Assembly: GCF_001625215.2 (NCBI RefSeq)
Contig: NC_030389.2
Coordinates: 31,857,454-31,921,453 of the forward strand
Direction: 5' to 3'
Source: Daucus carota subsp. sativus
Lineage: Eukaryota; Streptophyta; Magnoliopsida; Apiales; Apiaceae
DNA: 64,000 nt
A program made the translations under genes and the position numbers. Positions 21,538 through 62,140 of the stretch are shown one piece after another. The first letter of the stretch is position 1. Each line of letters opens with the position of its first letter. Under the pieces are notes generated by a model, which had not been told where the DNA came from, did no database searches, and worked only from the letters and a program-made list of their open reading frames with translations.

Positions 21538-24500
21538 ATGAAATATGCAGCTAATGTAGGAAGAGAAGAGCCTGAGTATGAACAAGATGATCCGTTGGAG
21601 ATGGGATATGGAAGTGATAGCGGAAAAGAGATGAAACCAGATGGCAAATTAGTCTCAGCAGTAGTGCAGGAAATGATGAAGCTGTTCAATACACAACAAG
21701 CATCAGGAGGAAACAACAACAACAAAATGGCTAGTTTTGCAGGTATAATCTTGGCCTCTAATGTAGTCAGTATAGTCAAATCTTATGATAAAAATACATG
21801 GATCATAGATTCAGGGGCATCTGATCACATGTGTGGAAATACGATTATCTTTCATAATTTAAGAAGTTTGGATTTACCTGTAAAGGTAGGATTATCGGAT
21901 GGAAGTGTTAAGATTGTTGATAAGATGGGTGATATTAAATTATCTAGAAGATTGACACTTTACGATGTGCTCTATATTGATGAATTCAATCATAATTTAC
22001 TTTCAGTTAGTAAATTAATCAAGACAAGTAAAATTAATGTGATGTTTGATACAAAAATTTGTATCTTACAGGACCCTTCAACTAAGGAGATAGTTGGGAG
22101 AGGAAAGGAGGAAAATGGGCTTTATAGAATAGAAGCTGCAAAAGATGAAGAGAATCAAGTTGGAGTAATGAGATTTTGGAGACAAAGTAATAATGTAGTT
22201 ATGTGCAATGCAGCTGTAAAACTTTATATTGTACATGCTAGATTAGGACATAGCTCGGTCTCCAAAATGAGGCACATCAAGTTTTGTAATTCAGATGGTT
22301 TAAGGAATTTCTTTTGTGATGCATGTTGTGTAGAAAAGCATCATAAACTGCCATTTAAGCCTAGTAATGCTATTGCTAAAAATATATTTGATCTTGTTCA
22401 TGTGGATTTATGGGGGCCATATAAGATTCCAAGTATTACAGGAGAAAATTAATTTCTTACTATATTATATGACTATACTAGAGCCACTTGGACTCACATG
22501 TTATCTAGTAAGGAACAAGTTAAGGATATCTTGTTTACATTTCTCAATTATGTGGAGAATCATTTTAAAGTAAAGTTTAAAACTTTAAAAAGTGATAATA
22601 GAACATAAGTGCTACAATCACAATGTAGAAAGATGTTCAATGAAAGGGGTATAATGCATCAAAGAAGTATTGTAGGCGTGCCGCAACAAAATGGAAGGGT
22701 CGAAAGAAAACATAGGCACTTGATAGAAACTGCGAGAACTTTAAGGATATATGCTGGACTTCCAAAATATTTATGGGGAGAATGTGTGAAGGCAGCAACA
22801 CATCTGATTAATTTAATGCCTAGCGCAGTGATAGGTTGGGAAACACCTTATAAAAGATTACTGAAAAAGAAGCCTGAATATGAACACCAGAGGATAATAG
22901 GTTGTTTATGTTATGCTTTTAATACAGATAGAAAATTGGACAAATTTGGAGATAAGGCAGTAGGATGTGTGCTGGTTGGGTATGCAAATGATCAGAAGGG
23001 TTACAGAGTATTTGATTTAGAGAAAAGAAAAATATTTGTGACCTGGGATGTAGTTTTTAAGGAAGAAATATTTCCTTTTCTCATCTCAGATGAAAATAAG
23101 GAAGGAAAAAAAGGGATTTGGGAAGTTTTAATTGTGAAATAATTAATTATCAAATTGGGCACTCACTTCACACCAATATATCATCGGGGGCATTCTCGAA
23201 TTTTCGGTCTCATTTGAAACACCATTTTCAGAAATTGTATCAGTCTTAAAAATAAAACGTTAAATTTGAAAACAAATCAACAGTTTAAGAAGTGTTACTC
23301 ATGGGGCTTTAACACAGTAGGCTATAGAGATTATGTAGGTATAATTAATTGAATTTCCGTGTCAAAAAAATGGGTAAAATTGATGATGAAAAAGATGGGT
23401 TATGAGGAACCCTAATAATACATATATAGCCATTTTTGAACGCAGAAATTCAATTAATCGTGCCTACATAATCTCTATAGCCTATTGTGTTAAATCCCCA
23501 TGAGAAACGCATCTCAAACTATCGATTTGTTTTCGAATTTAACTTTTTACTTTTAAGACTGATACAATTTCTGAAAATAGTATTTCAAATGAGACCGAAA
23601 ATTCGAGAGTGTCCCGAATGATATATTGATGTGAAGCGAGTGCCCTAATTGATAATTAACCCATAGAAGAAATCAATAGCAATCAAGAAGATGATGAACC
23701 ACTGAATAACGAGCAACTTGAGAAACAGAAGCAACAAGAAGAAGCTCTGGAACAAGAGATGTTTTGGGAAAATTCAGATTTGTTGGATGAAGGAACTTCA
23801 GATGAAAGGGAAATATTGATCGAAGAAGAAGAAATACAAGAGCCAGTTTTAATTGATATACCAGTTGAACAACAACATGAAAGAAGAAGGAGCACAAGAA
23901 TATCATCTGTTCCGAATAAATTCAAGGATTTTGTCTACAAGATTCCAGGAAAAGAAGAATCCGCTAACATGTCAAAGAGAACGGATTTGATTGAATATGA
24001 CAGAAGTGCCTATTCAGAAGAATACATCAGCTCTCTTAATAATGTCTTCAAATAAAAGACCCATGTAACTACACAGCAGTTAGTAAAAAATCAGGTTGGG
24101 TAGAGGCAATGGATAAAGAGTTGAAAGCTCTTGAAGAAAATGCTACTTGGGAGTTGACAGATTTGCCAAAGGGAAAGAAAGCAATTAGTAACAAGTGGGT
24201 GTTCAAAACCAAGTACAAAAGAAATGGTGAAGTTGAAAGATTGAAGGCAAGGGTCGTGGCAAGGGGAGACAAACAAATCAAAGAAAAAGATTATACGGAC
24301 ACCTTCTCACCTGTGGAAAAATTCACCACCGTAAGAAGTCTCATAGCTCTTGCTACTACACAAGTTTGGAATTTGCATCAACTCGATATTAATAATGCGT
24401 TTTTACATGGGTATTTGGAGGAAGAAGTGTATATGAGACCACCAGAAGGATACAAAAAAGCCAAACCAGGACAAGTGTGCAAGTTAAAGAGGAGTATATA

Positions 24501-25525
24501 TGGGCTTAGGCAGGCCTCCAGAGAATGGAATATGGAGCTGTCGAAGTTTCTAAGAAATTTTGGAATGAAAATCCAAGAGAGATTATTGTTTCTTTAGAAA
24601 GGTTCAGAATGGAAAAACAATCATGGTGTTGGTTTATGTAGATGATTTAATCATCACCGGTGATGATGAGGAGTGCATAACAATATTGAAACAAGAACTT
24701 GATAGAGCTTTTACAATCAAAGACTTGGGGCTGATGAGATATTTTTTGGGAATTGAAGTCTCCAGGAGCCCTCAAGGAACAATGTTAAATCAAAGAAAAT
24801 ATATACTTGATTTGTTGGAAGATACATGATTAGATAAATGCAAAGCAAGTCGATTCCCTTTGCAAAAGGGTCTTAGACTTTCTACTGCTACAGGAGAATT
24901 GTTAACAGATCCGGAGCGGTACAAAAGAATTATAGGACGATTGTTATATTTAAATTTGACAAGGCCAGACATTTCCTATTCGGTACAACAACTCAGCCAA
25001 TTCATGCAAGCTGTGAGGAAGCCTCATTTACAAGCTGCTTTACATGTGATTAGCTATTTAAAGGGAACAAGTGATTGGGGTTTATTTTATTCAGCAACAT
25101 CAGAATTGCAAATCACAGGATTTTGTGATGCAGATTGGGGAACATGTGCCTGTAGTGGAAGATCTCTTACAGGTTATTGTATTTTCTTGGGAGAGAGCCT
25201 AATTTCATGGAAGACTAAGAAACAAAAGACTGTGTCCAAGTCATTAACCGAATCAGAGTACAGAAGTATGTCTCACACTACTAGTGAATTAGTCTGGTTG
25301 GATGGGATTCTTGAAGATATGCATGTTTCTGTACCTAAAACCATCCCTCTTTTTTGTGACAATAAAGCAGCACATTATATAGCACAGAATCCAGTATTTC
25401 ATGAAAGAACTAAACACCTTAAACTGGACTGTCATTATGTGAGGGAACAACTTGATAAGGATTCATTTCTACTATCTACATCAAAACCTCTCTCCATCTT
25501 GCTGATATAATGACTAAACCCCTTG
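21538..25525 (+). pseudogene. Copia 1 pol remnant
   Basis: Pieces in order: aspartic protease WIIDSGASDHM (about 21800), integrase zinc region with HARLGH and CDACCVEKH, integrase core ending near 22450 at TAA, and the QQNGRVERKHR segment at 22609-23142. After the inserted foldback element come a linker with PVEQQHERRRSTR and the reverse transcriptase from WVEAMDKELKALEENATWEL. The YVDD catalytic box is at about 24636 and RNase H at 24860-25510 (TGFCDADWG). Stops and frameshifts occur at several points. Confidence 0.9.
23143..23659. mobile_element. Foldback element inserted in copia 1 pol
   Basis: The left end TTAATTATCAAATTGGGCAC and the right end GTGCCCTAATTGATAATTAA are inverted copies. 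Pairing runs over most of the 517 bp (TCTCGAATTTTCGGTCTCAT and CTATAGAGATTATGTAGG on both arms). It splits the pol linker after the integrase. It has no coding capacity; the palindromic TTAATTA ends hide the target duplication. Confidence 0.85.
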
Positions 25526-34699: not shown

Positions 34700-36500
34700 G
34701 ATGAGTCGCGGCGGTATAAGAGTCACAAGATTGGTGGTTCTTGGATTGAGTCTACCTGCCGGATACCAGCTATCGACCTATCGAAAGTGTTGTTGATGCG
34801 AGTCCTCCGGATCTCCCAATACACCGTAAAATTCATTTTCAACATAAACACGTCGCATAAAGCGAGACTCTCAAACACACAAATAATGACTCAGACAGAA
34901 AACAACGAAGAACCCAAATGAGTTTTCCGAATTTTGTGGAACAAAACTCGATTTTATTGAAGAAAAAACATACCGATTGAAAATTGAAAAGAAGAGAAGA
35001 GGTGTTGTGTGGATGGAGAATGAGCGGCTAGAGAATTGAGATGAGATGAAAGGTGACAGATAGGAATGGATAGAAGAGGCGGAGAAGGAGATGGAGGCGT
35101 CTAGGGTTAGAAGAAGATGGAGCGGCCGACTCTCATAAAATGTTGAAAGTTTAAGTTTCTAAGATTATAACAATCATGTCGGTGCTTTTTAGTTGTTACG
35201 TTTGGTTTTGTACCGGTGAAACTGACCAAAGTTTGACTGAAATTTATAAAAATTTATCAAATTGAAAAAATTTAAAAAAAATGTCACCAGAAATATTTTT
35301 TGAAAATAATAAAAGAGTGACTTATAATCATTGGTAAGAAATTAGTCAATTTGACCAACAAAAATAGAAATATGACAAATAAAAAGGAACGGACAGAGTA
35401 TCATTTAATGTTTATGAAAAAATACTTTATATATTTTTTTTGCTCAAATATAAATGCTCATAGAAAAATAGTATGAAAAAATGGTACGAATATTTATATG
35501 TACAAATAAATGTTAATAATTAAAAATATCTATAAACTTCTATATAATATAATAAAATAATTAATAACATAACAATGTTTAAAATTAAATAAAGTCATTA
35601 CAACACCATCAAACACATAAATAATATTTTAAGGGGTGTATTCAACCTGAATTTTAATAAATTTTATATAGTAATTTTTTTAATGGATCGTATCTGATTA
35701 TGATTTTATGCGGAATCTTGATAAAATATCGCAAAGTTGATGAGAGTTTTTATAATTTAAGCACAATTCTTAAAATACATTGAACAATCTCACAAAATCT
35801 ATTATTTTGTAAATTCCAAAAAGATACATTAACATTTGATATCATCAAATTTTAGTGAATTTTAAATAATATCAATTGAATGTCAGCAAATTTTAAAATA
35901 TAATTTGAAATTCTAATGAAATACCACCAAATTTTATGTGTAATTTAAATCTAAATTGAATATCCCACAATCTTGATACATTTTATAAAATCCAAGCTGA
36001 ATACACTCTGATTTCATAAATGAATTAAAATCTTTTAAAATCTCAATCTAATATACTCCTTAATCTCATAAGACGCTAAACCGATTCTTCATTTCAAAAC
36101 CGGTATTAGTTCACGAACCAAACCGGCCATTTTCCACTTTTATCTTTTGACTATAAACGATGTATTTATTTTTTCAAGACATTATTTTTTATTCTTAGAT
36201 TTTTTTTCTCATTAAATTTTACTCTTACAAAATTTTAACGAGATCTTTTTAGTTGATTATCTTTTTAGGCGTTAAATATGATATTGTCTAAATATCCAAA
36301 AAATACTTATATTCAGAATTATATAATTTTTTCAAGAAAAGGGTATATTCAATTTTTTTACATTATGCAAGAAATACTTATTTTAAATTTACTTAAAAGA
36401 CCCCGATAATTTTTTTTATGAATTATGTTCCTCGTAACAAAAAAAAAATATTAAAAAAGTTTTATACCATAAACCTTGCGCCAATCCTAACACTATTTTT
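34700..36500. other. Non-genic stretch upstream of the pentatricopeptide-repeat gene
   Basis: GA-rich sequence at 34980-35130 (GAAGAGAAGAGG, GGCGGAGAAGGAG) is followed by AT-rich DNA. GGAACGGACAGAGTAT near 35385 looks like one end of a MITE. No gene is supported. The last 100 bases before 36540 should hold the promoter of the next gene. Confidence 0.4.
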
Positions 36501-36539
36501 GGTATCCATTTTGGTTGCTAGCTTCCTCCCCCTACTACC

Positions 36540-38082
36540 ATGGCGGCCATGATAATCAAGTCAAAGCAATGCCTACGTCTCCCCTCCCACCTCATCTCTC
36601 CTCTCTCCACACTCACCTCTCCAGCCCTACAAACTCTCGAAGAACCCGAATTAATCAAACCCATCCTCCATCTCTCCCCATCCGAAACCCTAATTTCAGA
36701 CCAACTCCACTCCCTAATCAAAACCCACCACCGCAACAACCCCAACCCCACCTCCAATCTCTCTCTCCCCACTCTCTCCTTCGATCTCTCCCAAATCTCT
36801 CCCATCTCTCTCTCTCCCAACGTCATTCGCCATGTCATCCACAAATGCGGGTCCCCCCGCCACGGTATCCCCTTTAGCCAGACTCTCGCGTTCTTTAATT
36901 GGGCTGATAAATTAGTGTAGTGATGCTTATAATGATATGATTGACCTTTGTGGAAAGGTGCGCGCATTTGATGTGGCGTGGGGTTTGATTGATGATATGA
37001 AGGAGAATGGAATTGAGGTGTCGAATTCGACGTTTTCGGTTTTGATTAGGCGGTATGTGAGGGCGGGGTTGGCTAGTGAGGCGATTCTTGCGTTTAATAG
37101 AATGGGGGAGTATGGGTGTGTGGCTGATAAGATTGCGTTTACTAATGTTGTTTCGATTCTTTGTAAGAAGAGGAGGGCGGTTGAGGCTCAAGAGTTTTTT
37201 GATGGGTTGAAGGGGAAGTTTGAGGCGGATGTTGTGGTGTATACTAGTTTGGTTAATGGGTGGTGCAGGGCGGGGAATATTTCAGAGGCTGAAAGGGTGT
37301 TTAGTGAGATGAAGGAGGTTGGGATTCAGCCGAATGTTTACACTTATAGTATTGTTATTGATGCGTTGTGTCGGTGTGGGCAGATTACGCGAGCTCATGA
37401 TGTGTTTGCGGAGATGATTGATGCGGGATGTCAGCCGAATGCTATTACATTTAATAATTTGATGCGGGTGCATGTCAAGGCTGGACGGACAGAGAAGGTT
37501 TTGCAGGTGTATAATCAGATGAGGAAGCTATCTTGTGCTGCCGATACTGTTACTTATAATTTTCTTATAGAGAGTCATTGTAGGGATGAGAATCGGGATG
37601 AGGCTGTTAAGGTTATCAATACAATGGTCAGAAAAGGGTGTGAGGCAAATGCTTCTACATTTAACCCGATATTTAGGTGTATTTTGAAAGCAGGGGATGT
37701 TAATTCTGCTCACAGGTTGTTTGCGAGGATGAAAGAGATAAAGTGTAAGCCTAATACAGTGACATACAATATACTGATGAGGATGTTTGCTGATTCTAAG
37801 TCTGCTGACATGGTTATCAAGCTTAAAGAAGAGATGGACGAGGGTGAGATTGAGCCTAATGTGAATACTTACAGGATTCTGATATCCCTATATTGTGGGA
37901 TGGGACACTGGAATAATGCTTACAAGTTTTTCAGAGAAATGATGGAAGAAAAATGCTTGAAGCCTAGTGAGGCAGTGTATGAAATGGTTTTGCAGCAGCT
38001 GAGAAAAGCAGGACAGATAAAGAAACATGAAGAATTGGTAGAGAAAATGGTCATTAGAGGTTTTGTGGCTCGGCCTTTATAA
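36540..38082 (+). CDS. Pentatricopeptide-repeat protein, organelle-targeted type, with one frameshift
   Basis: The first frame (36540-36917) encodes an N-terminus rich in Ser, Leu and basic residues ([20 protein letters not shown]), typical of an organelle presequence, then [15 protein letters not shown] and AFFNWAD. The second frame (open from 36916, first Met 36937) gives 381 residues with about ten P-type repeats, for example [20 protein letters not shown] and [19 protein letters not shown]. The stop TAA is at 38080. No intron is visible. From memory it resembles Arabidopsis At1g20300, a mitochondrial P-type protein; members bind organelle RNA. Between FNWAD and [14 protein letters not shown] the frame changes and about eight residues seem missing. 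This is either a true lesion, leaving at best an untargeted protein from Met 36937, or a sequence error. Confidence 0.8.
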
Positions 38083-38925
38083 TTTTTTCACATTGTTGTT
38101 TCATTTTTACTGCAATATTTACATTGTAACTTTGCAGTCTCAGTTTCATTCTCTTTGTTGTCTTAATGAGCTTAAGTTTATACACCAGCAAATTTTTGGG
38201 GTCATTACTGAAGTTGCCACAATTGTTTTTGGATATTTGAGTTACTTGAGCTTGTAGATTCGTAAATAAAGCAAGCAAACCTGTCAACTATGTCATGAGC
38301 CGTTTATATCAATTTAACAATTAATACCCCAAATTTGTTTGACTTGTTTACAATCTGGATCTATAATCTTAATTCTATTATACGAGAACAAGACTGTTAG
38401 GTTGAGCAAATTCATTCAGTATATAATGACACTTCTGTCCTTGTTTTTACCCTTTTTGTCTACCCTCCAGATATGCATGGGCGCCTATTTCAAATTTTAT
38501 CACAAAAACCGCCGGTTACCTTGTATATCTACACATAAACCCCCGCCTTTCTGATATTGCAGGTAATTGGCTTGGGTTGCTCCAATCGCAAAATCTTTAT
38601 GTATCTGCTTCTTATGCTTTACACATTTAATATGATCGAATCAACATACAGAACCCATGTAAATGCTCTTGATTTTCATTTTTTTTGGTAGTATTGTAAG
38701 TGGTTATATTCTTTAGATATATATTAATGTGATTGTTTGATTAGGTTGGTAGGTAATGTATTGTTTCTGGAAATTATTTGGTAAAATTGAGTGTTACCCA
38801 ATGATTGGTGTTGAATAGAGAATTGTTTGTAATGCTGTGATGGAATGACTGAACCTGGGTGGTTTTTAGTTTGAAGCTAATGATTCTTAGTTTCTTTGTT
38901 GATCCTTAAATTTTTTATCCTAATG

Positions 38926-39209
38926 ATTTCTAGGCACAGACATTTCGTGTCACTAATTGGTTTACTGCGCGAAGGGGATAATGAAATGGTCCTGGCTTAT
39001 TTGATCAATGTATATTGTGTTGGAACTGCAAGGGGGCATTTTGTACAAAATTTAATATTACTTCATATTTTTATTGGTGCAGCAAGATGGATGCCTTATC
39101 TGCACATTACTAAAGCTAATAACACTTTTTATTCACAGGGATGTTAAGCCTATGTACTAATCTGTTGGATGATAACTGTGCTGCCATCACTCGGCCTTCA
39201 GGCTTAAGG
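38926..39209 (+). pseudogene. Receptor-like kinase fragment (CrRLK1L-like), copy 1
   Basis: The frame ISRHRHFVSLIGLLREGDNE, MVLAYL, then IGAARWMPYLH aligns with the kinase N-lobe hinge and helix E of FERONIA-type kinases. Typical members read RHRHLVSLIGYC and IGAARGLHYLH. In another frame IHRDVKP follows, and then NLLDDN and TRPSGL correspond to NILLD and the DFG region. The catalytic motifs are frameshifted or altered (DFG is lost) and the rest of the kinase is absent. It is a decayed fragment without the malectin or membrane parts. Confidence 0.75.
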
Positions 39210-39694
39210 TAACAGATTTCATATACTCTCTATACATACAATTATTATATTTAGCAACTGTTGTCCCACAAGTGAGTAATATGTTCAGAATTTATTAATA
39301 AAACTGATAACTTGTATACACTTTGTCCTAAATAAAGTGCATGTTCAAAAATCATCAAGAACACAAGTAATGTGTATAGATAAATCCCAAATGTGTTGTC
39401 TTTGTTCTGGAATAAATTAGAGTAATTGTATTTCATATACTCCTTGTCATCATATTGTTGTTTATAAAATATTGGCGGCCAGTATATGTTTTTCCCCAAA
39501 TTAGCTCATGCTCAAACCCCATAAAAAACTTTCTAAAGAATTTAGTGTCTGCACATTTGGATCACACAAATATTTATAAAAATAAAATTATTTTAATCTC
39601 CTCTTTATAACTGAGTGGTTTATTTGATTTAATATTTGCTTTAGAACATGTTTTATTGTACAGTGTAGAGGGAACTATACTTAATTGTCTTTTG

Positions 39695-39717
39695 CCCCCC
39701 CCCCCCCCCCCCCCCCC
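39695..39717. repeat. Run of 23 cytosines
   Basis: A pure C23 tract is followed by GACCCCGAAAACCCCC. Copy 2 of the duplication lacks it. The length may be uncertain in sequencing. Confidence 0.9.
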
Positions 39718-39849
39718 GACCCCGAAAACCCCCTACTTTAGGCTAAATTATCTCCAAGTGCTTATACAGACTATCTTAAATTTAATTCTCATGTCGTATG
39801 ACTCTACTTATTATTATGTATACAAGGGGATGACTCTAGAATGTTCAAA

Positions 39850-40090
39850 GCTCTACCCTTTGATCTTTCAACTACATGTAACTTAAGTCCATGTCCTTAC
39901 AAGTTACAAGTCCACGACTTTTGGCTCGTCAAGTTTATGTAACCTACATCTTGTATTCACATAAATAGGGATGAACATTGAGCTTGTATAACACACAAGA
40001 GAAAAATATTACAACTTCACTACTCTTATATGCTATCTGAACTAGTATAGTATATTTGTTCTAACATGCTATCAGCACCATAGTGTTAAT
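39850..40090 (+). mobile_element. Possible solo-LTR remnant in duplication copy 1
   Basis: ACATAAATAGGG (TATA-like) and TTGTTCTAACA followed by TGCTATCAGCACC look like the 3' end of a copia-type LTR and a mutated methionine primer site. It is absent from copy 2 at the matching place. The 5' border is unclear. Confidence 0.35.
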
Positions 40091-42107
40091 ATAAAAGTAC
40101 ACATTGTATTTGTTATTGCATGGAAAGAAAGCTATCGTAAGGTTGTGACTTGGAAGCTCGTGACACTGTTCCTCTTCTATTACGTAAGTACAATACCATC
40201 ATAACATGCCACTATTGTAACATGTTTTTGCTCCTTCATTTATCTTGTTTGTTAATTCAGAGTTAAATCATTGTGTGTTTATACTAATTGCATCATGATT
40301 TGTTTCTGTCCTAATGAAAATCAACTTCACTCCTATTAGTACATGCATAAGCAGAGTTATTATTTGGTACCCAATTGGTTTGGAATAAACAAAAATGGGA
40401 ATATGTGGTTTGTTTGTTTGTTTTTCTGTGATCTCATAAATAAAATTCAATATATATGTTATACCATCTGCATGCATGCTTCAGGTTATTAAAATTCAAG
40501 TAGAATGAATCTGGATACTAGAAGTCTATGGCTACAGACTTTTAGTTGGGCCGCTTATAGGATTTTTTTCTTTTAAACTAAAATATCTAGGTTTGATAAA
40601 AGGTCAAGTCATATAATTATTATCAAATATATACAATATGTTATGTAAACAAAAGATATATCTAGTTTGTCAAAGGTCAAGTTATATAATTATTAACAAA
40701 TATAAACAATGTTTTATGTAAGAAAAGATATATCTTGTTTGTCACTACATGTGGCATTAGGCTAGCAACCATTCTCTGTAACCACAAAATCACAAAGTAT
40801 TGAATCCCAAACTAAAATAAGTAAAAAAGACTTAATTTAATTCCATTGCAATCTTGCATTTAGAGAATAAAACTTTATTTCAGAATAATCAAAGGGTCTA
40901 TTCAAATATAATTGTAATTTCTTGATTCTATTTTTAATGTAGTTATAATATTTCCAAGAATTAAAAATAAGGAATATCATTTTTGTATCATCTCATTTGT
41001 GATTTTTGTTGTTTCAAATTAGCACAATGTATTCAAAGAAAACATTAATAATTGTGCAAAATATAGAAATTAAATATTATTTCTCTTATTAAAATAGATT
41101 GATATTATTTAGTAAGAAAATAATGAACTTGGTTATTATAAACAATCAAGAATGTTGGAGCTTGGCTAAGGTTCGGCACTTTAAAAGAATTGTAGAATTT
41201 GATTCTCGTCTTAAAGTTTATTTAGCATTCATTTGATTTCGCAAAATATGAATTCAACAATTATCATAAAAGATGATGAATATATGATAATATTAATTCT
41301 AGCACATTATTATAAGATGTGTGTCATTGGTCTATTAATCTTAAAAAGGGTCGAAATTCTTTACTAAATCTCTATATACATTATCAAAGCCAGAGAACTT
41401 GTGTTCTTAATATTAGAAATTGGGGTTTTGTAATTCATGGAGAGTGTCTGTAAAGTGTAGTTGATCATTTCTTTTGTAGAAGAGAAAGAGTGTCCAGATT
41501 ATTCATCTTGACAAGCCTGCTTGATATATATAAGTAGTAGAAGATAATTGATCGAGTTGGCTAATATATCCTTTTTTCGCTAGGTCTAAATGGTCATGAC
41601 GCTCTCTTTGTTAGCAATCCAAGGTTAGCATGTTTGGTGCAATGAAATATATTATATTGGTGTCTCTATGAAAGCACATACAATGAGCATATATACAGTA
41701 AAGTTTTAAACTGATCGTATTGTAGTTGACACCCAGTATTTTAGTTGATGAGGAAAACAATATTATTGTAATTTTCAATGGAGTAGCCAGAAGAATATGC
41801 TTGGTATCATTGTTTGCAACAAAAATAATTATACAATATTGAACCCAAACTAAAATAAGAAAAAAAGAAGAACTTAATTGAATTACATTGTAATCTTGCA
41901 TCTAGAATATTAAAATTTTATTTCGTAGATATAATTTGCAAACAAGCTGAAATTCTTATTTTTATTGAAATGAAAATATAACAATAATAAAGATATTCAT
42001 TTCAGTCTATACTTAAGAGATATAAATCTCTCAACAGACAACAAAATCACAAGAAAGGCTTGAATAAATGGAAACATTGTTAATTTAGCATCTTGAATTT
42101 ATAATAC

Positions 42108-42640
42108 TCAAAGAAAAAATGTCTCAATGAATAAAGAATTTCTATAAATTACTACATCTAGAACCACATAACTTATAATTGTCATTGTCCGCACAGTTTC
42201 ATAATATATGACGCCGTTCCATTTGCACACCATGGCGTTGAAAATGCTAGGTAATGAGATAGGGAAAAACAAGCCCTTGAAATAAAAATCAATCAAGAAA
42301 TCTTTCAGATCTTAAAAGTCTATTCGGACCTTCCGAATACAAATAGATAAGATCCACTTGTGCAAACCTCCCAAATCCTTGAAGAACATTGACACAAACA
42401 TTGTTCAACATGGAGAAGCCAATTACTTAACTCCACTTCGGGTGGAATATTGAATGACATCAATGTCGGGACAAATTGCCTCTATTGGGTCTATTTCTTA
42501 ACCCACGAGAATGTCCACGACGCTTGGATTGAGAAAGTCCTCCGCCGTTACCCACTGCAATATTAGTATTTGACATATTTGATGGATGCGAATGAAGTTG
42601 GAAAGTAATTTGGCAGCAACAGATTAAAAGAAAAATGGAC
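42108..42640 (-). pseudogene. AHL-like gene, broken copy on the left palindrome arm
   Basis: On the minus strand MSNTNIAVGNGG is followed by KRRGHSRGLRNRPNRG, then a shift and stop after NLSRH. Later frames recover VCVNVLQGFGRF, SEGPNRLLRSE, FNAMVCKWNG and SYVVLDVVIYRNSLFIE, matching the right-arm protein. Indels and stops prevent a full product. Confidence 0.8.
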
Positions 42641-43236
42641 ATATATAAACATAGATATAGGGGAGGGTGTTTCATGATGTCTTGAGCCTCAGATTTTAAA
42701 ATTTTAATTATTTATTATATATTCAATTTTAATTTAATATTTTAATTGCTCTATTTAATGGGAATATGAAAGAAAAATAAAATTTGTTTAACTCATAAAG
42801 TCATGCTTAAAAATAAAATTTTTTACATATTTAAAAAATTATTTAAATAAAATGTGTGTGAATTGTTAGATAATACATTTATGAGCACAATAATACATAT
42901 CATATTTACATATCATCTAGCAATTTACACACATTTTATATTAAATAGTTTTAAAAGTATGTAAATATTATATTTTAGACATGACTCTATGAGCTCAACA
43001 AATTTTATTTTATTTTCACTTTTCCACAAAATAGGGCCATTAAAAAATTAAACTAGAAATTATGACAAAAAAAATTAAACTAAAAATGAATACATAAAAA
43101 ATAATTAAAATTTTAAAATCTTAGGCTCAAGGCGCCGTAAAAACACCCTGCCCTAAATCTCTGTCTATATATGTGCATTTTTCTTTTGATCCGCCGCTGC
43201 CAAATTACTTTCCAACTTCATTCGCGTTCATCAAAT

Positions 43237-43716
43237 ATGTCAAATGTTAATGTTGCGATGGGTAACGGCGGTGGAGTTTCTCCAGCCCGGCGTCGTGGAC
43301 ATCGCCGTGGGTCGAGAAATAGACCCAATAGAGGGCAATCTGTCCCGACTGTGGTGTCACTAAATGTTCCACCCGGAGTGGAATTAATAAGCTGGATAAT
43401 TTGCTTTTCTGTGTTGAATCGTGTTTGTGTTAATGTTCTTCGTGGATTTGGCAGGGTCGCGCGGGTAGATCTTATCAATCTGTATTCGGAAGTTCCGAAT
43501 AGACTTTTAAGATCCGAAGAATTTCTTGACTTGATTTTTATTTCAGGGGCTTGTTTTTCCCCTATCTCATTACCTACCCTTTTCAACGCCATGGTGCGCA
43601 GATGGAACGGCGACATAAATTATGGGACAATGCGGACAATGACCACCGTAAGTTATGTGGTTCTAGATGTAGTAATTTATAGAAATCCTTTGTTCATTGA
43701 GACACCTTTTGTTTGA
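43237..43716 (+). CDS. AHL-like protein (AT-hook plus PPC/DUF296 type), right palindrome arm
   Basis: Start ATG 43237 gives 159 residues. It follows a TATATAT motif at 43164-43170 and matches the start context on the other arm; an upstream in-frame ATG at 43171 would give 181. RRRGHRRGSRNRPNRG (residues about 16-31) parallels the AT-hook RGRPRGSKNKP of the AHL family, but the GRP core is replaced. The rest follows the PPC domain: VPPGVELISWI, RVCVNVLRGFGRVARVDL, SEEFLDLIFISGACFSPIS, then MVRRWNGDINYG where AHLs have GGQGQVVGG, and VVLDVVIYRNPLF. AHL proteins are nuclear, bind AT-rich DNA and trimerise through PPC. With a weakened AT-hook it might act through PPC contacts only. It could be a transcribed gene or a long-lived captured copy. 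No intron is apparent. Confidence 0.6.
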   Translation: MSNVNVAMGNGGGVSPARRRGHRRGSRNRPNRGQSVPTVVSLNVPPGVELISWIICFSVLNRVCVNVLRGFGRVARVDLINLYSEVPNRLLRSEEFLDLIFISGACFSPISLPTLFNAMVRRWNGDINYGTMRTMTTVSYVVLDVVIYRNPLFIETPFV

Positions 43717-44989
43717 GTGCTATAGATTCAAGATTCTAAATTGACTATGTTTCCATCTATTCAGTCTTTCTCATATTTTATTGTCTTTGGAGAGAGATCT
43801 ATATCTCTTCAAAGTATGGATTGAAATTAATATCTTTATCATTGTTATGTTTCCATTTTCAATAAAAATAAGAATTTCACCTTGTTGCAAATTATATCTA
43901 TGTTATAACATTTTAATATTCTAGATGCAAGATTACAATGCAATTGAATTCAGTTTTTTTTTTTTGCTTATTTTATTTGAGGTATGATGTTGTATAATTA
44001 TTATTGTGGTCATTAAATTTGATTTATTTAAACAATGATACCATACATATATATTCTTCTAGCAATGTACTCCATTGGAAATTATAAGAATATTGTTTTC
44101 CTCATCAATTATAATACTGATCTGTTTAAAACTGATCGATAAAAGGACATGTTTCCACACACCTATATTACATCTTACATTTTTACTATATTTGCTCACT
44201 TATCTACTTTCACACAAACACCAATATAACATCTTTCATTGCATCAAACATGCCAGCCTTGAATTGCTAATAAAAAGAGCATGATAACCATTTGGACCTA
44301 GTGAAAGAAAGATATATTAGCCAATTCACTATCTTCGCTACTTATATTTATCAACCAGGCTTGTGAAGATGAATAATCCAAGCACTCTTTGTCCTCTAAA
44401 AAAAGATGATAAACTACACTACACAGACACTCTTCATGAATTATCAAACCCAAAATCCCAATTTGATAATTTCTAATATTAAGAACATCAATAGTGTTGA
44501 TGCTAATTTTACAGTTGTATATTGGAATCTGTGAGTTTGATAATGTCGATAGAGATTTAGTAAATTTTTTTACCCCTTTAAGGACTAATGACACTTTATA
44601 ATAATGTGCTAGAATTAATATTATCATATAGGCATATATTCATTGTCTTTTATGATATTGGTTTAATTTAGATAATTTTTTGTTGTGTAATCTATTGAAT
44701 GCTAAATAAATTTTAAGATAGAGAATCATACTATACAATTCTTTTAAAGTGCGGAACTTTAGCCATGACTCTTAGATTGTTGAAATTATTTATAACCAAT
44801 TTCATTATTTTCTTAATAAATAATATCAATCTATTTTAATGAAAGAAATAATATTTAATTTCTATATTTTACATAATTATTAATATTTTCTTTGAATGCA
44901 TTGTTCTAATTTGAAACAACAAAAATCACAAATGAGATGAGACAAGAATGATGTTTCTTGTTTTTATTTTTTTTAAAAATATTTTAATA

Positions 44990-46767
44990 TCAAGGTCATC
45001 CTCATCCTCTTCTTGTCCATCATTTGGTGGTGGCTCGTCTTTTGAACATTTCACCCTGATCTGCATGCCACATAACCCACTGTTGTTAGCAAAATAACTC
45101 GGATCATTCATTGTGTCCATTTGTCCACCCCGCGGGATTTCACCACTTAGCTTGTTGTTGCTCACATCTGACACAGAGAGTTCATCTAACTTCATAAATG
45201 ACTGTGGAATTGTACCAGAAATATTGTTGTTGGATAGGTCCAATGTTTCTATACTCTCAAGATCCCCAAAACTTTGTGGTATACATCCAGAGAGCCTGTT
45301 GTTGGCGATGTTCAGTAGCTTTAGATACTTGAGCTTTCCTAATGAAGATGGAATATTACCGGAGAGCATATTCTTCGACAAGTCTAGCAAAGAATAGAAC
45401 TGCTGGTTATGACTTGAGAGACCTTGTATAGCATTCTTTCAGTTCACTGTAAGGTCATTGATTTCTATTGTAAAAGTAAACATGCCCCTGTAGGATTTAA
45501 TCGTGCCCTCAGTCCAGCTCAGCTCCATTTCATTATCAATATCAGGTCCACTTACATATAAAGCCCAACCTCCAAATAGATTTTCCAACTCCGATGGGAC
45601 ATTTCCAACAAGATTTTTAATTGAGAGATCTAGGATTTTGAGGCTACTTTGGTTGGAGAACAACTTGGTTGGTAGTGAGCCATGTAGATAATTGTTACGT
45701 ACACTAAGAACTTGAAGGTAGGATAGTTGGGAAAGAAATTCTGGCAAATTACCTGTAATGTTGTTGTCATGGAGATCAAGATATTCAAGCATTATCATAT
45801 TTGTTGGGTTCCTAGGCAACATACCAGAAAACTTATTCCCCCCCAGTGCAAGAATACTGGTTCCTCCGCAAAATGACACTGGAATGTCACCTGAAAGTTC
45901 ATTAGAGGACAAATCAACATAAAAGAGTGAGCAATCTGCAGGATCAAAAACTGGGAATGTGTTGCCAGACAATTTGTTTCTTGACAAGTCTAATAGCATT
46001 AGTTGAGGGATATCAGCAATGGATCTTGGAATGGCCCCGGAAAAACTGTTTGCAGACAGCATAAGTACCTTGATGTTATTAGCATCACCTATATTTTCTG
46101 GCAACTCTCCTGAAAAATTGTTATTGAAAAAGGCGAGATGGTATTGAACCAGTAAGCTTGTTACACGACAGAAGTATACTTTTAACTTCCATTTCTGCAA
46201 GCCATATAGGAAATATTCCTGTTAAATTACAGTCACTCAGATCGATATATCAAGATTCTTTTGAGTGGAAATCCATTCAGGAATGTCTGCAGAAAATTTG
46301 CATGATTTGAGAGAGAGTTGAGAAAGCATACACTTAGGAACTATTTTGACATTGTTATTCCAAGTTAATGTGTTCCCTCCAAGATTTAAGATCTTGAGAC
46401 TCTCTATGTTAAATAAACTTGAAGGGATTTCTCCCGAAAGCCTATTATTTTCCAACAGAAGTGTTTCCAACCTGATCAAGTTACTTATTGATGGAGGTAT
46501 AAAACCACTGATACTGTTTTCGCTCATGTATAATATTTCCAATCCCTTCAAATACCCTATTGAATCTGGAATACGCCCCGAAAATTTGTTGTAATTGATA
46601 GAAAAGTGTTGCAACTTTGTCAGATTTCCAATTTGCTCAGGAACATATCCATCAAGCCGATTCTCTTCCAACTTTAGAGTCTTCAAATTTCCAAGCTTGC
46701 CAACTTCACTACTTAAACCACCCTTCAGTGAATTATAAGATAAATCAAGAAATTGCAGATTCTTCAA
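44990..46767 (-). pseudogene. RLP pseudogene 7 (long, truncated at both ends)
   Basis: On the minus strand LRRs run from NLQFLDLSYNSLKGGLSSEV through IPEWISTQKNLDI, where one base is lost (near 46240). A compensating shift near 46160 leads into NNFSGELPENIGDANNIKVL, then the island region SWTEGTIKSYRGMFTFTIEI and NDLTVN. A TGA replaces the Trp codon at 45439. Then come LDLSNNNISGTIPQSFM, GLCGMQIRVKC and acidic GQEEDEDD. The palindrome cuts it at about 44990, before the membrane helix. The N-terminal cap and signal peptide are absent because sequence reverses orientation at about 46770. Confidence 0.85.
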
Positions 46768-52998: not shown

Positions 52999-54603
52999 TT
53001 AAACTAATTCCTTGCGATCCTTCATTCCCATCATCCTTTTGTAAGCATCCAGCAAGGCTTTGGACATTGGTTTAGTGAGCACATCTGCAACCTGATCTCG
53101 ACTAGCAACATGACGTAAATGCACATTCTTCTCCTTTACATGCTCCCGAATAAAATGGAATCGAACATCAATGTGTTTACTCCTTTCATGATGCACTGGA
53201 TTCCTGGCAAGCTCAATTGCAGACTTGTTGTCGATGCAAACTTCAGTTGATCTCTGTTGTGGAATTCTCAAATTACTAAGTAACCTTCTTAACCAAATAG
53301 CATGACAAACACAGTGAGAGGCTGCTACATATTCTGCCTCACAGGTTGATAATGCCACTATCGGCTGCTTCTTAGAATACCATGTAAAGGCAGTGTTTCC
53401 CATAAAAAACAAGTAACCAGATGTGCTTTTTCTTTCATCCACATCTCCACACCAATCACTATCAGAATATCCCTGCAATTTGTAGTCCTCAGTTCTGGAA
53501 TAAAACAATCCCAGAGTTTTTGTTCCTTGGATATAACGTAGAATTCTTTTAATTGCCTTCCAGTGTGACTGTTTCGGATCTTCCATAAATCTGCTCATAA
53601 TTCCAACACTATATGCAATGTCGGGTCTTGTGCATGTAAGATATCTCAAGCTTCCAACCAAACTTTGATATAAATTTGCCTCCACTGAATTTCCTCCCTC
53701 AAATTTAGAAAGTTTTGTACCCAATTCCATGGGTGTTGCTGCTGGATGACAGTGCTCCATTCTGAACTTCTTCAATATAGAATTAGCATACGCTTCTTGA
53801 GATATAAAAATTCCTGATTTTTCTTGCTTTACTTCGATTCTAAGAAAAAATTTCATCAAACCCAAATCTGTCATCTCGAATTCTTGGGTCATCTCCTTCT
53901 TAAACTCCTTAATCATCTCTTCATTGTTGCCCATAAAAATAAGATCATCAACATAAAGTGCAACGAATAGTAAATTACCTCGTCTTTCTTTGACATAAAG
54001 AGCAGCTTCATATGGACATTGAACAAATCCATTTTTCTTAAAGTAGGCATCAATGCGAGTGTTCCAAGCTCGTGGCGCCTGTTTTAAACCATATAGTGCT
54101 TTAAACAATCTCAACACCATTCCTTCTTTACCTGGTTTTGCATATCCAGGTGGCTGGTTCACGTACACCTCCTCTTCTAGCTTGCCGTTTAAAAAGGCTG
54201 ATTTTACGTCCATCTGGTAAATAGGCCATTTGTGTTGAGCAGCTTGAGAGATCAGCAGCCTTATTGTCTCCATCCTTGCTACAGGTGCAAAAACTTCATC
54301 ATAATCTATTCCAGCCTTCTGTCGATAGCCCTTTGCTACCAACCTCGCTTTATATCTTTCTACTTCTCCTTGTGCATTTAGTTTCTTCTTATAAACCCAT
54401 TTAACATCGATAGGTTTACATCCTTCTGGAGGTTCCACCAGTTCCCAGGTTTTGTTCTTCTCAATAGCTTTAATTTCATCATCCATTGCTGCTTTCCACA
54501 TCTTATCTTTTACTGCTTCTCCAAAATCTATGTTTTCTGCATCAGCCACCAAACATACTAAGTGCACCTCACCATGTTCATATATATATCTTGTAAACTT
54601 CAA
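52999..54603 (-). pseudogene. Copia 2 reverse transcriptase and RNase H
   Basis: It reads [20 protein letters not shown], then [11 protein letters not shown] and [15 protein letters not shown]. The YVDD box is at about 53953. After it come [13 protein letters not shown] and RNase H with [20 protein letters not shown] and [12 protein letters not shown]. This part is open to its natural stop. It is separated from the rest of pol by the lesions near 54560-54600. Confidence 0.9.
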
Positions 54604-56852
54604 GTTCTAGGATTTCTCGGCTCATCCTCATCTGATTCTTCATTTTTAGCATCAAAACTTGTTGCTGAAATCGTAGAAATCTGAATATCATCTTCTGTTG
54701 TTTCCTTATCATGTGCTTTACTCCAACTCCATACATCATCTTCTTGTATCTTCACATCTCGACTCACAACAACCTTCATAGCAACTGGATCAAGTAGTCT
54801 GTAGGCTTTTGTTTTCTCATCATAGCCAATAAAAATATATTTCTTGCTTTTATCATCCAACTTTGTTCTCCTCTGATCAGGAACATGTGAATATGCCACA
54901 CTCCCAAAAACTTTCAAGTGTGAGACAGTAGGCTTCCTTCCACTCCATAATTCTTGAGGTGTTTTATTCCCCAAGTTTGAATGTGGGCAGCGATTCTGAA
55001 TGTAAACAGAACACTGCACTACTTCTGCCCAGAGTTCTTTTGGCAGTTCCTTGCTCTTTAACATTGATCGAACCATGTCTAGAATTGTTCGATTTTTCCG
55101 TTCAGCCACGCCATTCTGCTGTGGTGAATAAGGGGCTGTTAAGAACCTTCTAATGCCATGTTCTTCACAGTATTCTGTAAAAGCATTTGAAGTATATTCT
55201 CCTCCTCTATCAGAACGCAATCCCATGATTTGCATTCCTGTCTTCTTTTCAACCAGCACTTTGAATTTCTTGAAAACTATTAATGCCTCAGATTTTTCAA
55301 TTAAGAAATAAACCCAAGTTCTTCGAGAATAATCATCAATAAAAGTGATGAAGTACCTCTTGGAGCCATATGATCCAGGTGTGATAGGACCACATATATC
55401 CGTATGCACCAACTCGAGAGGCTTTGAAGCACGATAAGTCGCCTTTTTCTGGAATGAACTCCTTGTTTGTTTTGCCAGCACACAATCTTCACAAAAACCG
55501 CCTGTATGATCCATGCTTGGTAGTCCATGAACCATTCCTTTGTTGGCCAACTCCTTCAAACCACCATAGTGTAAGTGGCCAAGTCTCTTGTGCCATAAAG
55601 TTGCTGTATCTTCTGATTTTGCTTGTAAACATTTCTCCTGTATGTTCTTCAGATTCAGCTTGAACATTCGATTTGGAGACATTTCAGTTTTAGCAACTGT
55701 CCTGCCATTTTTGTCCTTCAAGCACATGACTTTATCTCCCATAAGAATTGAGTATCCTTTTTCAATTAGCTGTCCAAGACTCAGAATATTATTCTTCATG
55801 TCAGGGACATAATACACATCTTCAATTTTTCCTCGTTTGCCATCCTTTCTAGTAAAACATACTTCACCCTTTCCTTTTACTTCTATCTTCGAAGAATCTC
55901 CAAATGACACAACTCCAGAATTTACTTCCTTCAGATTAGTAAAGAGATGTTTGAGGCCAGTCATATGATTGCTGGCCCCACTATCAAGATACCACATAAT
56001 ATCATCTTCAGGAATCATACCTTTGCAGGCCATTAGTAGAACACCTTTGTCTTGTTGCTCCTCCGTTTCGACTAGATTTGCATTTTCCTCAACCTTCTTG
56101 TTAAACCAGCAGTCTTTGGCATAATGTCCAAACTTTCCACAATTGTAACATTCTACAGATCTGCTTCCTCTTCCAGAATATGATCTTCCACCTCTGCCAC
56201 GGCCACGTCCTTGACCACACCAGTTTTGTTGATTTGTCTGCACTTTCTCTTCAAATCTGTTGTTTACAGGACCTCGTCCTCTGCCTCGAGTAAAAAACTG
56301 TTTTGCACGTCCACGTCCTCTTCCTCTACTGTATTGCGTATATAGGACTTTATCTTTGTCTTCAACTGAGACATCAGTTTTCAATACTTGAGATTCTGTC
56401 TCCTCCTTCTTTAGTAATCTTTCTGAATATGCTTGCAGAGATCCCATCAGTTGATCAACAGTCATGGTCTCTATATCATTTGACTCTTCAATAGAGATTC
56501 CAACAAGTTGCAATTTTGTATTCAAAGATCTTAATATTTTTTCATTCACACGTGCATCTTCAATCTTTTCTCCATAATTCTTCATTTGATTTACAACAGA
56601 GGAAACCCTCGTGAAGTAATCCAGGACTGATTCCGTATCTTTCATATGTAAAGACTCAAATTCACCACGTAGAGTTTGTAATCGTACCTTCTTTACTTTG
56701 TCAACACCTTTAAAATTGTTCTGCAAAATCTCCCAGGCCTCCTTTGCTTTTGTTGCAGATGCAATCTTCTCAAACATGCCTTCATCCAGGCCCATATGTA
56801 TAATAGACAGAGCTTGCTGATCTTGTTTTCGAGATTTTGCCAGATTGTTTTT
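54600..56852 (-). pseudogene. Copia 2 gag (3' part), protease and integrase
   Basis: The open frame carries gag AKEAWEILQNNFKGVDKVKK, arginine-glycine tracts (RGRGRGR), and the zinc knuckle CYNCGKFGHYAKDC. Then come the protease WYLDSGASNHMTG, integrase LWHKRLGHLHYGG and core with FIDDYSRRTW and SPQQNGVAERKNR. It ends at TGA near 54602, and an AT dinucleotide run beside it shifts the frame to the reverse transcriptase. Upstream it runs into the MITE, which supplies a false N-terminus. Confidence 0.9.
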
Positions 56853-57397
56853 GGGTTTTATATCAAACTGACCACCTATTTTGTCAAAAAATCTCACTTG
56901 ACCCACCCAAAAAATTTCGGACTCATTTAAGCCACTATAAACCAAATATATATCATTTTACCCACTTCATTATTCATATCTTTTTACTTAATTATTTATA
57001 AAAAATTAACCGTTTATTTTTTTACTACAAAACCACTTCGAGTACTTTCATAATAATTCCTGATATTTATTAAAATAATTTGGGAATTTCTAAAGCAACA
57101 TAGCCATGTAGTTAAATAAAATATATAGTTATAGATATAGTTATATGATCATCCTAGCTATGTTGCTTTAGAAATTTCCAAATTATTTTGATAAATACTA
57201 GGGACTATTATCAAAGTACTCAAAGTGGTTTTGTAGTAAAAAAACAAACGGTTGATTTTTTATAAATGTTTAAGTAAAGAGCTATGAATAGTGATGATAT
57301 ATATTTTGTTTATAGTGGCTTACATGAGTCCAAAATTTTTTGGGTGGGTCAGGTGAGATTTTTTGACGAAATGGGTGGGCATTTTTATATAAAACCC
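56853..57397. mobile_element. Mutator-type MITE in copia 2 gag
   Basis: The ends GGGTTTTATATC and TATATAAAACCC begin inverted arms of over 100 bp (ATCTCACTTGACCCACCCAA on the left, its near-complement on the right). Further inner pairing surrounds GCAACATAGC. The flanks carry GATTGTTTTT at 56843-56852 and 57398-57407, a 10-bp target duplication as in Mutator-like elements. Confidence 0.9.
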
Positions 57398-58455: not shown

Positions 58456-61400
58456 TCAAGGCTGCTGTGTATCCTTCTCCTTTGTTGTTGAACCTGGGAG
58501 ATAAGTCTTCTTCAAATTACTGAGAGCCTTGGCCAATGAACTCTTTGTGATCACATTTCTTCCATGTGATAAGAAGGGTGCAGACTTCAGCTCTGTTTGA
58601 CCAACAATTGTCTTAAATTGCTTCACTGGTGGAGGCTTTTTCTTCCCCAATTTCATAGGGCCTGTGTAAGAATTTATCTGCACTGGTGGAGAGTGTTCCT
58701 TGGTTTGTAGAGTATCCTCCTCAGCCTCAGCCTCAGGCTCATCAAGGACAACTGGATTATCCTCTGTGTTTGTGAATTTGCTGAAAGCAGTTTTCTGAAA
58801 CAATCTGGTGCTTCTCCTTGGCTCAACCTGAGAGGTTTGCATTGGCATTTTCCCTTTGTCAATCCTCTGTTGCATCTCCTTTTTTACAGTCTTCCTCCTG
58901 GCATCCTCCATCTCAAGAGCTTGTTGTTCAGCAACAGTTTTTTCTTGTTGCTTTTCTGAATCCATAATCTGTTTGAGGGTCTTCAACTTTGCAGCTGCAA
59001 CCATGACAGGGGAATCTTTGGTTGTAGTCAACCCCAATGTCCTCAACTTCATTTGTCTAATCTTCTTTGCTGCAACTGCCAGAGGGGTCTCATCATCCTC
59101 ACTTTCCTCACTTGCAGCCTCACCCTCTTCTTCAGCTTCATTTGCCTCAAGATCTTGACTTTGTTGAGTCAATGGTGGTCCTTGGTCAGGATACTCCATT
59201 GCCTCCTGTGCAGTTCCCACATCTTCTTCCCCATCTGTAGCCTCCTCATTTGCAGCACCAGGTTGAACATTTGCCTCCTCAGTTGCAGCATCAGCTTCAA
59301 AATTTGCCTCAACTGGATGAAGCTCTGGGCAAGTCCTTCTGTTATGGCCAATTGCCTTGCAATTCCCACACCTAAAAATCACAGAAGATCACAGAAAATG
59401 GCAAAAAATACAGAAATGGCAAAAATACAGAAAATGGCAAAAAATACAGAAATTGGCATAAAATACAGAAATGGCAAGAAATACAGAAAATTAATACCTC
59501 ACAGTCAACTGAGTCTTTTTGCTTAAACTCTTCACACCTTGACTCTCCTTTTCAACCATGTCTGGCATCTTTGGCCTTCTCCTTTTTTTGGGCCTCCCTG
59601 GTTGCTTCTCAACTGTTGGTGGTTTCATCACTAAACCACTCTTCTCCCAGATCATGTGACCATTCATGGGATAGATAATTCCAGAGTAAGCCTTTTTGTA
59701 GTTGTTTGTGGTATACACCTTGTCAACATAGTCCTCCACAGAGTATCCCAGCCTATTCAAGCAACTTATGGCATGTTGGCAAGGTATGCCACACAAGTCC
59801 CATCTCTTACATCCACATGTCCTGTTTCCTAGATGGACAACATACTTGGAACCAGTAAATGTGGTGACTTCAAATTCATCATAACCAGCATATGTGGAGT
59901 AGCAAGATCCACTCAGTTTCTTGTTTTTCTCAATAATTTTGTAGATTTTTGGAGTAAATCTGTTATCCCCCCAAGAAACCATGTCATCCCTCTTGGACTG
60001 CAACCTCCTCATTAGATATTCTCTAATCATTTCTAACATGATTAGGACACCTTGCTCCCTAGCCCCCAAAATACACCTGTTGAAACTCTCACACATATTG
60101 TTTAACAGAAGGTCACATCTTGACTCTGTTTTAAAATGGGACCTAGTCCAATGATGAAATGGGACCTCTGTCAACCATTTCCAAGCACCCTCATTCTCTT
60201 CTTTAATATTGGTCATAACAACCTCAAAAGCCTCAATGTTAGCTGCCCTAGCACAAGCCCAGAGTTTGTCCTTCAAACTTCTACCCCCATACTTACCCTT
60301 AAAATTATTGTGTAGGTGCCTAACACAGTACCTATGCTCAACCATGGGTAACATCTCCTCAACTACAGTCAATAGCCCCTTTTGTCTATCACTAATGAAG
60401 GACCAACCATCACCTAGACCTATTTCAAAATCTTCAGCAAGTAAAGCAACAAACCATCTCCAAGAATCAAGTCTCTCTGCCTCTACTACTGCATATGCTA
60501 TAGGAAACATGCAATTATTCCCATCTAAACCCACAGCACAGAGTAACTGACCTTTGTAAGCACTTTTTAGGTGACAGCCATCCAAGCCAATGAACTTCCT
60601 GCACCCAAGCTTAAAGCCATGCTTCAGTCCTCCTAGACATATGTACATCCTTCTAAACACTCCAGCAGCCCCTACAAGCACAGATCTGGAATTACAAAAA
60701 GTTGTACAGAAAGCATTCTAAAGTCAACTAATTAAACACAATACCTGGCTCAATGTCAATCACAACTGTTGAGTTGGGGTTCCTTTTGAGAAGCTCTGTC
60801 TTGTAATCCCACAGCTTTGCAAACTGCTCTTCCAGGGTGCCATTGATGATTTTCATACACTTTCTCCTTGCTTTTCTCAAGATGTGATGCTTGACATCCA
60901 GCTGCAGATCTTTCAAAACTCTGTTGTGGAAGGCTTTTATTGGCCAAGAGGGGTTGATTCTGAATTCTCCAAGATATTCCCTTGCTAAGAATCCTGAATT
61001 TATTAGAGGTAACCCCCTCTGCTCTCTAGTACATGTGTGTTCTGTCAAAAGAGAAGAGCAACATCAATATAATATGCAGTGAAACAGTTGGCATTGTAAA
61101 AAGACAGAAATAACCTCAAAATTTACCTGGTCCCACTTTCTTAATCTGCATGGTCTTGTTAAAGTTCAGAGAGGCAAAAGGAGTCCACTGACATGGAGCT
61201 TTACACACAGCCTTCACTCTTGTTCTGTCACTCTTAACAAACTTTATCACTCTCCCTTCACTAACTGAATGCTTCACTATAGCTTGTCTGAATTGCTTGT
61301 GATCAGTGAAGACCATCCCAACTGTCCACTTTGGATCTTCTGTATCCCTATAGCTTGGAAATGTTTTCCTTCTACTGCCTTCACCACCAACTTCATCCTC

Positions 61401-62140
61401 GAAATCATTGCCATCCAAGCTTTCAAGCTCATCACTGTCCTTGTCACTCTCTTCTTCATTTTCAGGATGCATCACCACTTTTTCTCCTAATCCCAAACCA
61501 GCCCTCAATGCACCAACCCATTCTACTCCACCATCGACATTATCATTGTATAGCATGTCATCATCAGTCATCGAGTAATCTGATTCAGCAAAATCAGAGT
61601 CATCTAATTCATCCCCACTCACCCTATCTTCAGCTACATCATTCACCCCTCCAAAATTTTCCTCAAACTCCTGATTAGAATGTTGCACATAAACATCTAT
61701 TTTGTTGTCATTTTCCATAGCAAATGACAACATATCTTCTACGTCTTTGTCTTCTTTCAATAAAACCAACCCCCCATCCATCTCTCTCTGAGGAATCCTA
61801 TAATAAAGACACCTCAATCCCCCGTAACCCAGAGCTTTACTCCATTCTCTCAGACTCTCCATGTTAATATCATCTTGGTCTCTAAAATGGTACACAGTCA
61901 CTTTTCCCCCAACATATTCGGTGACGGGAACCCAATTTAAACACCCCCCATGGAACAGACTCAACGATATACAATCATCACCTTGTAATCACAAAACCAC
62001 GAGATAAACATTGCAAGATAATCATAAAGAAAAAACAAAAGCTATGTGATATTGATGCATCTACAGGGGGGTAATCAGATTATTCAAGTTCAAAATAGGG
62101 TTAAGAAATTACCAGAGGAGCTGTTGCTAATGCTAGCCAT
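58456..62140 (-). CDS. MULE transposase (MuDR type with PB1-like N-terminus), five exons
   Basis: Exons 62140-62113, 61981-61127, 61041-60745, 60671-59498 and 59371-58456 join in frame to 1089 residues. The protein starts MASISNSSSG, and the small first exon is supported by donor CTG|GTAATT and acceptor TTACAAG. Residues about 25-110 resemble a PB1-like domain (YVGGKVTVYHFRDQDDIN), followed by an acidic stretch. Residues 215-290 fit the MuDR DNA-binding region (WTVGMVFTDHKQFRQAIVKH). The transposase core at 400-600 has candidate acidic residues in GLDGCHL, SDRQKG and NNMCESFN. A SWIM zinc finger CGCKRWDLCGIPCQH lies near 680, and a zinc knuckle CGNCKAIGHNRRTC near 787, then a Glu-rich tail. 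It cuts and inserts the element in the nucleus. No stop or shift is seen, so it may be active. Confidence 0.88.
59385..59495. repeat. Short tandem repeats in the last MULE intron
   Basis: About six copies of a 15-17 base unit (AATACAGAAAATGGCAAAA with variations) fill the 126-bp intron. Confidence 0.85.

Follow-up and report, generated by a model that had tools for sequence, protein, structure and literature searches.

A four-kilobase palindrome in the carrot genome, best read as an ordinary gene duplication

In carrot, the noncanonical AHL subclade A3 comprises DcAHL7-10, 35, 36, 43-45 and 47, which are described as rapidly evolving, locally duplicated genes with PPC domains that are shorter and less conserved (PMC8157401). 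A3 includes intronless genes, some of them found on chromosome 2, and genes with two PPC domains, which are found on chromosome 9 (PMC8157401). Two further systems bear on genes that have been copied in inverted orientation. In soybean, an inverted repeat of CHS genes was reported to mediate siRNA silencing (PMC3804491), and the inverted-duplication model of microRNA origin, in the account given in PMC3237417, allows the two copies to lie in divergent orientation.

We analysed a stretch of 64,000 nucleotides from Daucus carota subsp. sativus (NC_030389.2, positions 31,857,454 to 31,921,453; hereafter the window), for which an earlier inspection, referred to here as the original prediction, had proposed a palindrome bearing an AHL-like gene on each arm. 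This four-kilobase palindrome is best read as an ordinary gene duplication. A history of gene duplication is enough to explain it, striking as it is.

The palindrome and its two genes

A BLAST search of positions 40000-46000 against the window returned one long reverse-complement match, which covers 40943-44987 at 77.4% identity over 4245 columns (E = 0.0). This self-alignment, which the original prediction had called for, confirmed the palindrome that it had claimed: the interval 40943-44987 is a near-complete palindrome and is not due to chance. The left arm (40906..42876, minus strand, edges approximate) reaches to about 40906, as judged from the other copies described below. It is followed by an unpaired centre of roughly 35 nt (42877..42910, no strand) and by the right arm (42911..44987, plus strand), the outer end of which was removed in the window by a deletion. 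The innermost paired stretches of the two arms are 42810-42875 and 42911-42976. Each arm measures approximately 2.0 kb, more than the 1.8 kb or so that had been predicted, and in the window the arms are 84.2% identical at ungapped sites, which is slightly below the predicted 85-90%.

The arms are arranged head-to-head, such that both AHL/PPC-like genes begin close to the centre and are read outward. The gene of the right arm is short and consists, in the window, of one open exon. It is a 159-aa ORF with a degenerate AT-hook core (43237..43716, plus strand), with its ATG at 43237 and a stop codon that ends at 43716. Its counterpart on the left arm (approximately 42108..42576, minus strand) is a pseudogene with four frame-breaking deletions. 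The positions and strands of the ORFs, together with their homology to PF03479 genes, bear out the expectation of an outward-facing AHL/PPC-related gene on each arm, with an open copy on the right and a broken copy on the left.

Approximately 270 bp are deleted at the end of the right arm in the window. This segment is present in three of the three copies compared (L009, L012 and L014), where it holds the outermost stretch of the arm together with the C-terminal end of a receptor-like protein, and the tight join at 44987/44989 in the window is therefore a deletion scar. The receptor-like-protein (LRR) gene that adjoins the right arm is present as three ORF pieces (44989..46767, minus strand; the first of them was run against Pfam). 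The deletion took its C-terminal end, which is kept in L009, L012 and L014, and fused the gene to the arm.

Just beyond the left arm, part of an arm segment occurs a third time (40770..40881, plus strand); this copy is 79.7% identical to 41808-41924 and has a visible counterpart in four further units of the array described below. Two tandem 73-bp units, 78% alike, occupy 40580-40725, immediately left of the palindrome. Elsewhere in the window, Pfam searches identified an open 381-aa pentatricopeptide-repeat (PPR) ORF at 36937-38082 and MULE transposase domains (PF10551 and SWIM at 59491-60681, and DBD_Tnp_Mut at 61116-61964). The ORFs at 21538-25510 and 52999-56945 look by eye like polyproteins of what we take to be Copia-type LTR retrotransposons.

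Copies of the palindrome and the order of events

The original prediction had also proposed a genome search for further copies. We searched the genome (441,086,747 bases, 11 contigs) with each arm, skipping very common words and scoring 12 of 12 first-look candidates in each search. The matches (15 and 19 in the two arm searches) were confined to a single 250-kb stretch, C9:31.898-32.151 Mb. Copies do exist, then, as local co-duplications. The array comprises seven loci, five of which have both arms (the window, L009, L012, L013 and L014) and two the left arm only (L010 and L011). Since the left arm of L009 is broken up, the right arm of L013 is shortened, and L010 and L011 are incomplete overall, two near-full arms are found in only three loci. 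The palindrome copies are approximately 6 to 28 kb apart from one another, with one gap of 144 kb, and lie beside receptor-like-protein genes. The next unit of the array starts at the end of the window, where 63673-64000 matches 40090-40403 at 93.6%.

The duplicated unit carries its flanks and the receptor-like-protein genes. The flanks of the window from 38.0 to 46.8 kb recur, in pieces, beside L009, L010, L012 and L013. The segment at 37.3-40.7 kb matches C9:32.127-32.133 Mb, which is approximately 13.5 kb before the left arm of L014, and 40738-40863 matches about 0.6 kb before the arm of L011. As judged from these alignments, L014 and L011 are the same array unit carrying inserted DNA. We had considered the odd left flanks of these two loci as a sign of mobility, and rejected this since the flank of the unit was found beyond the inserted DNA. 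The insert in L011 (L011:2381-2986, approximately 0.6 kb) lies between positions equivalent to 40863 and 40860 of the window, carries GGGCTCATTTG/CAAATGACCCC as inverted ends together with a short TTAG repeat, and, read by eye, resembles a small DNA transposon. In the case of L014, approximately 13.5 kb that are unlike 36000-40960 of the window (L059 and the start of L014) lie between its left arm and the unit flank.

Comparison of the arms indicated the order in which these copies arose. Within a locus, arm-to-arm identity was 83.7-84.9% in all five two-arm loci. Between loci, the identity of the same arm was 93.9-98.4% for the left arm (7 copies) and 95.9-98.1% for the right arm (5 copies). 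The difference thus amounts to approximately 16% between the two arms of a locus and to 2-6% between loci for one and the same arm. Gene conversion between arms over their whole length, which we considered as a candidate, is contradicted by the fact that the arms have diverged equally in each of the five loci with two arms. The codon trees of the left and right arms place the five shared loci alike, and a joint tree separates all right arms from all left arms (both computed without support values). Furthermore, 6 of 6 assessable left copies carry the same three one-base deletions in their ORF, the left copy of L011 being outside this count because that part of its ORF is lost, which implies that the left gene died before the amplification. 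Taken together, the arm identities, the agreeing trees and the shared left deletions place the inverted duplication first, the death of the left gene next and the amplification last. The copies lie in one array, their flanks are co-duplicated and their arm histories are congruent, as expected of an amplified inverted duplication. If 7e-9 substitutions per site and year are assumed, the inverted duplication would have occurred, very roughly, 13 million years ago and the amplification 2-3 million years ago.

For these and the following comparisons, the left arm of L011, from which too much is deleted, was excluded from the consensus and the codon fits and kept in the identity and Ka/Ks comparisons. 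The shortened right arm of L013 was excluded from the right consensus in the indel and deletion analysis, and was included in the identities, Ka/Ks, paralog-residue count, trees and codon models.

Kinship of the right-arm gene and constraint on its frame

With E up to 1 as the limit, a genome search with the right ORF returned 76 matches, counting the array's own copies. The best matches beyond the array, which are 37-40% identical, belong to clusters on C2 near 40.4-40.6 Mb and on C9 near 9.3 Mb. All four of the relatives that we tested (33-39% identical) reached the PF03479 cut-off of 25 bits, with scores of 25.7, 57.9, 30.9 and 30.1 bits, the weakest of them being barely over it. The window ORF itself gave no Pfam match at E up to 10, under HMMER filters that drop most weak matches. 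On sequence grounds, the AHL/PPC kinship of the right ORF holds through its homology to these PF03479-positive relatives.

The AT-hook core of the relatives, RGRP, is RGHR in the right arm, and the core of the left arm is lost as well. We looked for the Arg-Gly-Arg-Pro core and did not find it in the window ORF, which reads RRGHRRGSRNRPN as compared to PRGRPRGSKNRPK in the C2 paralogs, and for this reason we do not assign the window gene as a member of the AHL family. A further AHL sequence string is also absent from the window ORF; the core of that string is reported in only approximately 40% of carrot AHLs (PMC8157401). In a protein tree, which has open forks and long branches, the window gene falls on a long separate branch. 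A single-sequence structure prediction of the right ORF was uninformative (pLDDT 39.5). The C2 and C9 matches are probably named DcAHL genes, as judged from chromosome and structure rather than from accession, with Pfam run on one gene of each cluster. Four loci near C9 9.3 and 29.7 Mb (L037, L039, L040 and L042) contain AHL-like ORFs, each with two stretches that match the window protein. In L037, the one to which Pfam was applied, both stretches are PF03479, as described for carrot DcAHL43-45 (PMC8157401).

The right ORF is fully open in three of the five right copies and frameshifted in the other two, so that it ends at 154 aa in L009 and at 99 aa in L014. Ka/Ks ranged from 0.51 to 2.43 in right-right pairs (10 pairs), from 0.33 to 0.68 in left-right pairs (14 comparisons) and from 0.79 to 3.25 in left-left pairs, which are pseudogenes (21 pairs). 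In the window, divergence between the arms was similar in the ORF (69/466 sites) and in its flanks (50/300 and 180/1123). Codon models, which were fitted in IQ-TREE with kappa tried at five values and compared by the likelihoods obtained when omega was left free and when it was set to 1, did not reject neutrality of the right copies (lnL -881.96 with omega free vs -882.24 with omega = 1). Freeing omega changed the log-likelihood by 0.28 for the right copies, 1.31 for the left copies and 0.41 for all copies. On the stem of the right ORF, we counted no indel, where the noncoding arms would predict 4.2 (P = 0.015; approximately 0.017, calculated by hand, when two alignment-end gaps were dropped). 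Residues shared with paralogs were retained by the right copy at 13 sites, by the left copy at 6, by both at 5 and by neither at 10 (P = 0.17). The missing indels weakly suggest past constraint on the frame of the right ORF. The codon models, the two frameshifted copies out of five and the 13-to-6 residue count do not demonstrate an active right gene. The original prediction had held that neutral decay of the right ORF, along with an absence of small RNAs from the arms and of other copies, would reduce the locus to an inverted duplication. Neutral decay was not rejected; other copies do exist, locally co-duplicated.

Origin of the palindrome and comparison with known systems

Very probably, the locus is an old head-to-head inverted duplication of an AHL-like gene, the left copy of which decayed, and the unit was later amplified by segmental duplication. 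As the sequence shows, a noncanonical PPC-related AHL-like gene and its flanks were duplicated in inverted, head-to-head orientation, possibly by a process such as template switching during repair. The left gene lost its reading frame, as its shared deletions show, before the later copying. The right gene may have remained intact at first, perhaps because selection acted on its reading frame. The unit, with its neighbouring receptor-like-protein genes, was then multiplied within 250 kb of one chromosome, as the co-duplicated flanks and the congruent arm trees show. As a palindrome, the present locus most likely has no function; its right ORF may at most give a PPC-like protein, with expression driven outward from the centre.

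The original prediction had raised a transcript crossing the centre, which would give a long hairpin and could feed small-RNA silencing. On this reading, the hairpin would silence the locus's own gene or its relatives, as at an early stage of a microRNA gene arising by inverted duplication. Perfect pairing between the two arms of the window occurs in ten runs of at least 21 nt, 281 bases in total, and both the divergent orientation allowed by the model (PMC3237417) and the soybean CHS repeat (PMC3804491) speak for this reading. However, genes placed head-to-head are transcribed apart. Transcripts from promoters at the centre diverge and both are sense, so that a hairpin would need a promoter outside the palindrome. 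Moreover, the arms are only 84% alike, and their 21-mer similarity to 18 other AHL-like loci fell within the spread of values from five control stretches taken from the window: 21-mers with at most two mismatches occurred in 8 of the 18 loci for the arms and in 3, 0, 9, 4 and 5 for the controls, which makes the arms the second highest of six. A 21-mer match to the AT-hook codons, with 2 mismatches, looked suggestive and was dismissed, as the controls reach 0 to 9 of the 18 loci. Rfam, at gathering scores, gave no match in 40500-45500. Silencing of other AHL genes by a hairpin is not supported by these results, and we regard a small-RNA locus of this kind as unlikely. It is quite improbable, too, that the amplified palindrome is a young small-RNA locus, half-way to a microRNA gene, in which readthrough hairpins silence its own right-arm genes across the array. 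The seven copies of this one inverted duplication would form a convenient natural series in which to ask whether inverted gene repeats with imperfectly matching arms give rise to small RNAs.

A foldback or other transposon with long terminal inverted repeats could also have captured an AHL-like gene, as had been suggested as an alternative. Long inverted repeats are present, since the arms are symmetrical to within approximately 35 nt of the centre; the receptor-gene homology in the window ends beside the arm, the left flank of L014 breaks off at the arm end, and L009 and L012 each have a 9-bp direct repeat close to the arm ends. The receptor-gene boundary of the window is the deletion scar, which is absent from all three compared copies, and the left flank of L014 is the same array unit, displaced by approximately 13.5 kb of other DNA. 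In a search for target-site duplications in L009, L012 and L014, the best candidates were the 9-bp repeat of L009 and L012, which is not above chance, and 7 bp in L014; the 9-bp repeat contains A and T only, and its length was reached 144 times in 1000 shuffles of L012 and 141 times in 1000 of L009. In addition, the AHL-like ORF is the only one of at least 150 aa that lies wholly inside the palindrome, and copies at unrelated sites were not found, as the arms gave no match beyond one 250-kb interval when very common words were skipped. We regard a transposon origin as highly improbable.

Read as an amplified inverted duplication, the locus can be compared with the systems that it most resembles. 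Like the soybean I locus, as it is described in PMC3804491 and PMC13051633, it lies within a gene cluster and repeats a member of a gene family in inverted orientation. In contrast to the I locus, for which siRNAs and a phenotype are reported (PMC3804491, PMC13051633), the carrot arms have diverged from each other and are far from possible targets. It also consists of two neighbouring copies, inverted to each other, of a protein-coding gene, as in the inverted-duplication model of microRNA origin (PMC3237417). It departs from that model in that the carrot palindrome has neither an Rfam match nor a target match above the control range. The locus also resembles the A3 genes, and it adds a diverged, partly decayed lineage to these fast-evolving noncanonical AHL genes. 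The window ORF differs from the A3-like clusters in its 37-40% identity, in having RGHR for RGRP, in lacking a Pfam match of its own and in its long separate branch. Its best matches are a C2 cluster with a single PPC and a C9 cluster, at about 9.3 Mb, whose ORFs have two PPC-like stretches, in line with the description of A3 on chromosomes 2 and 9 (PMC8157401).
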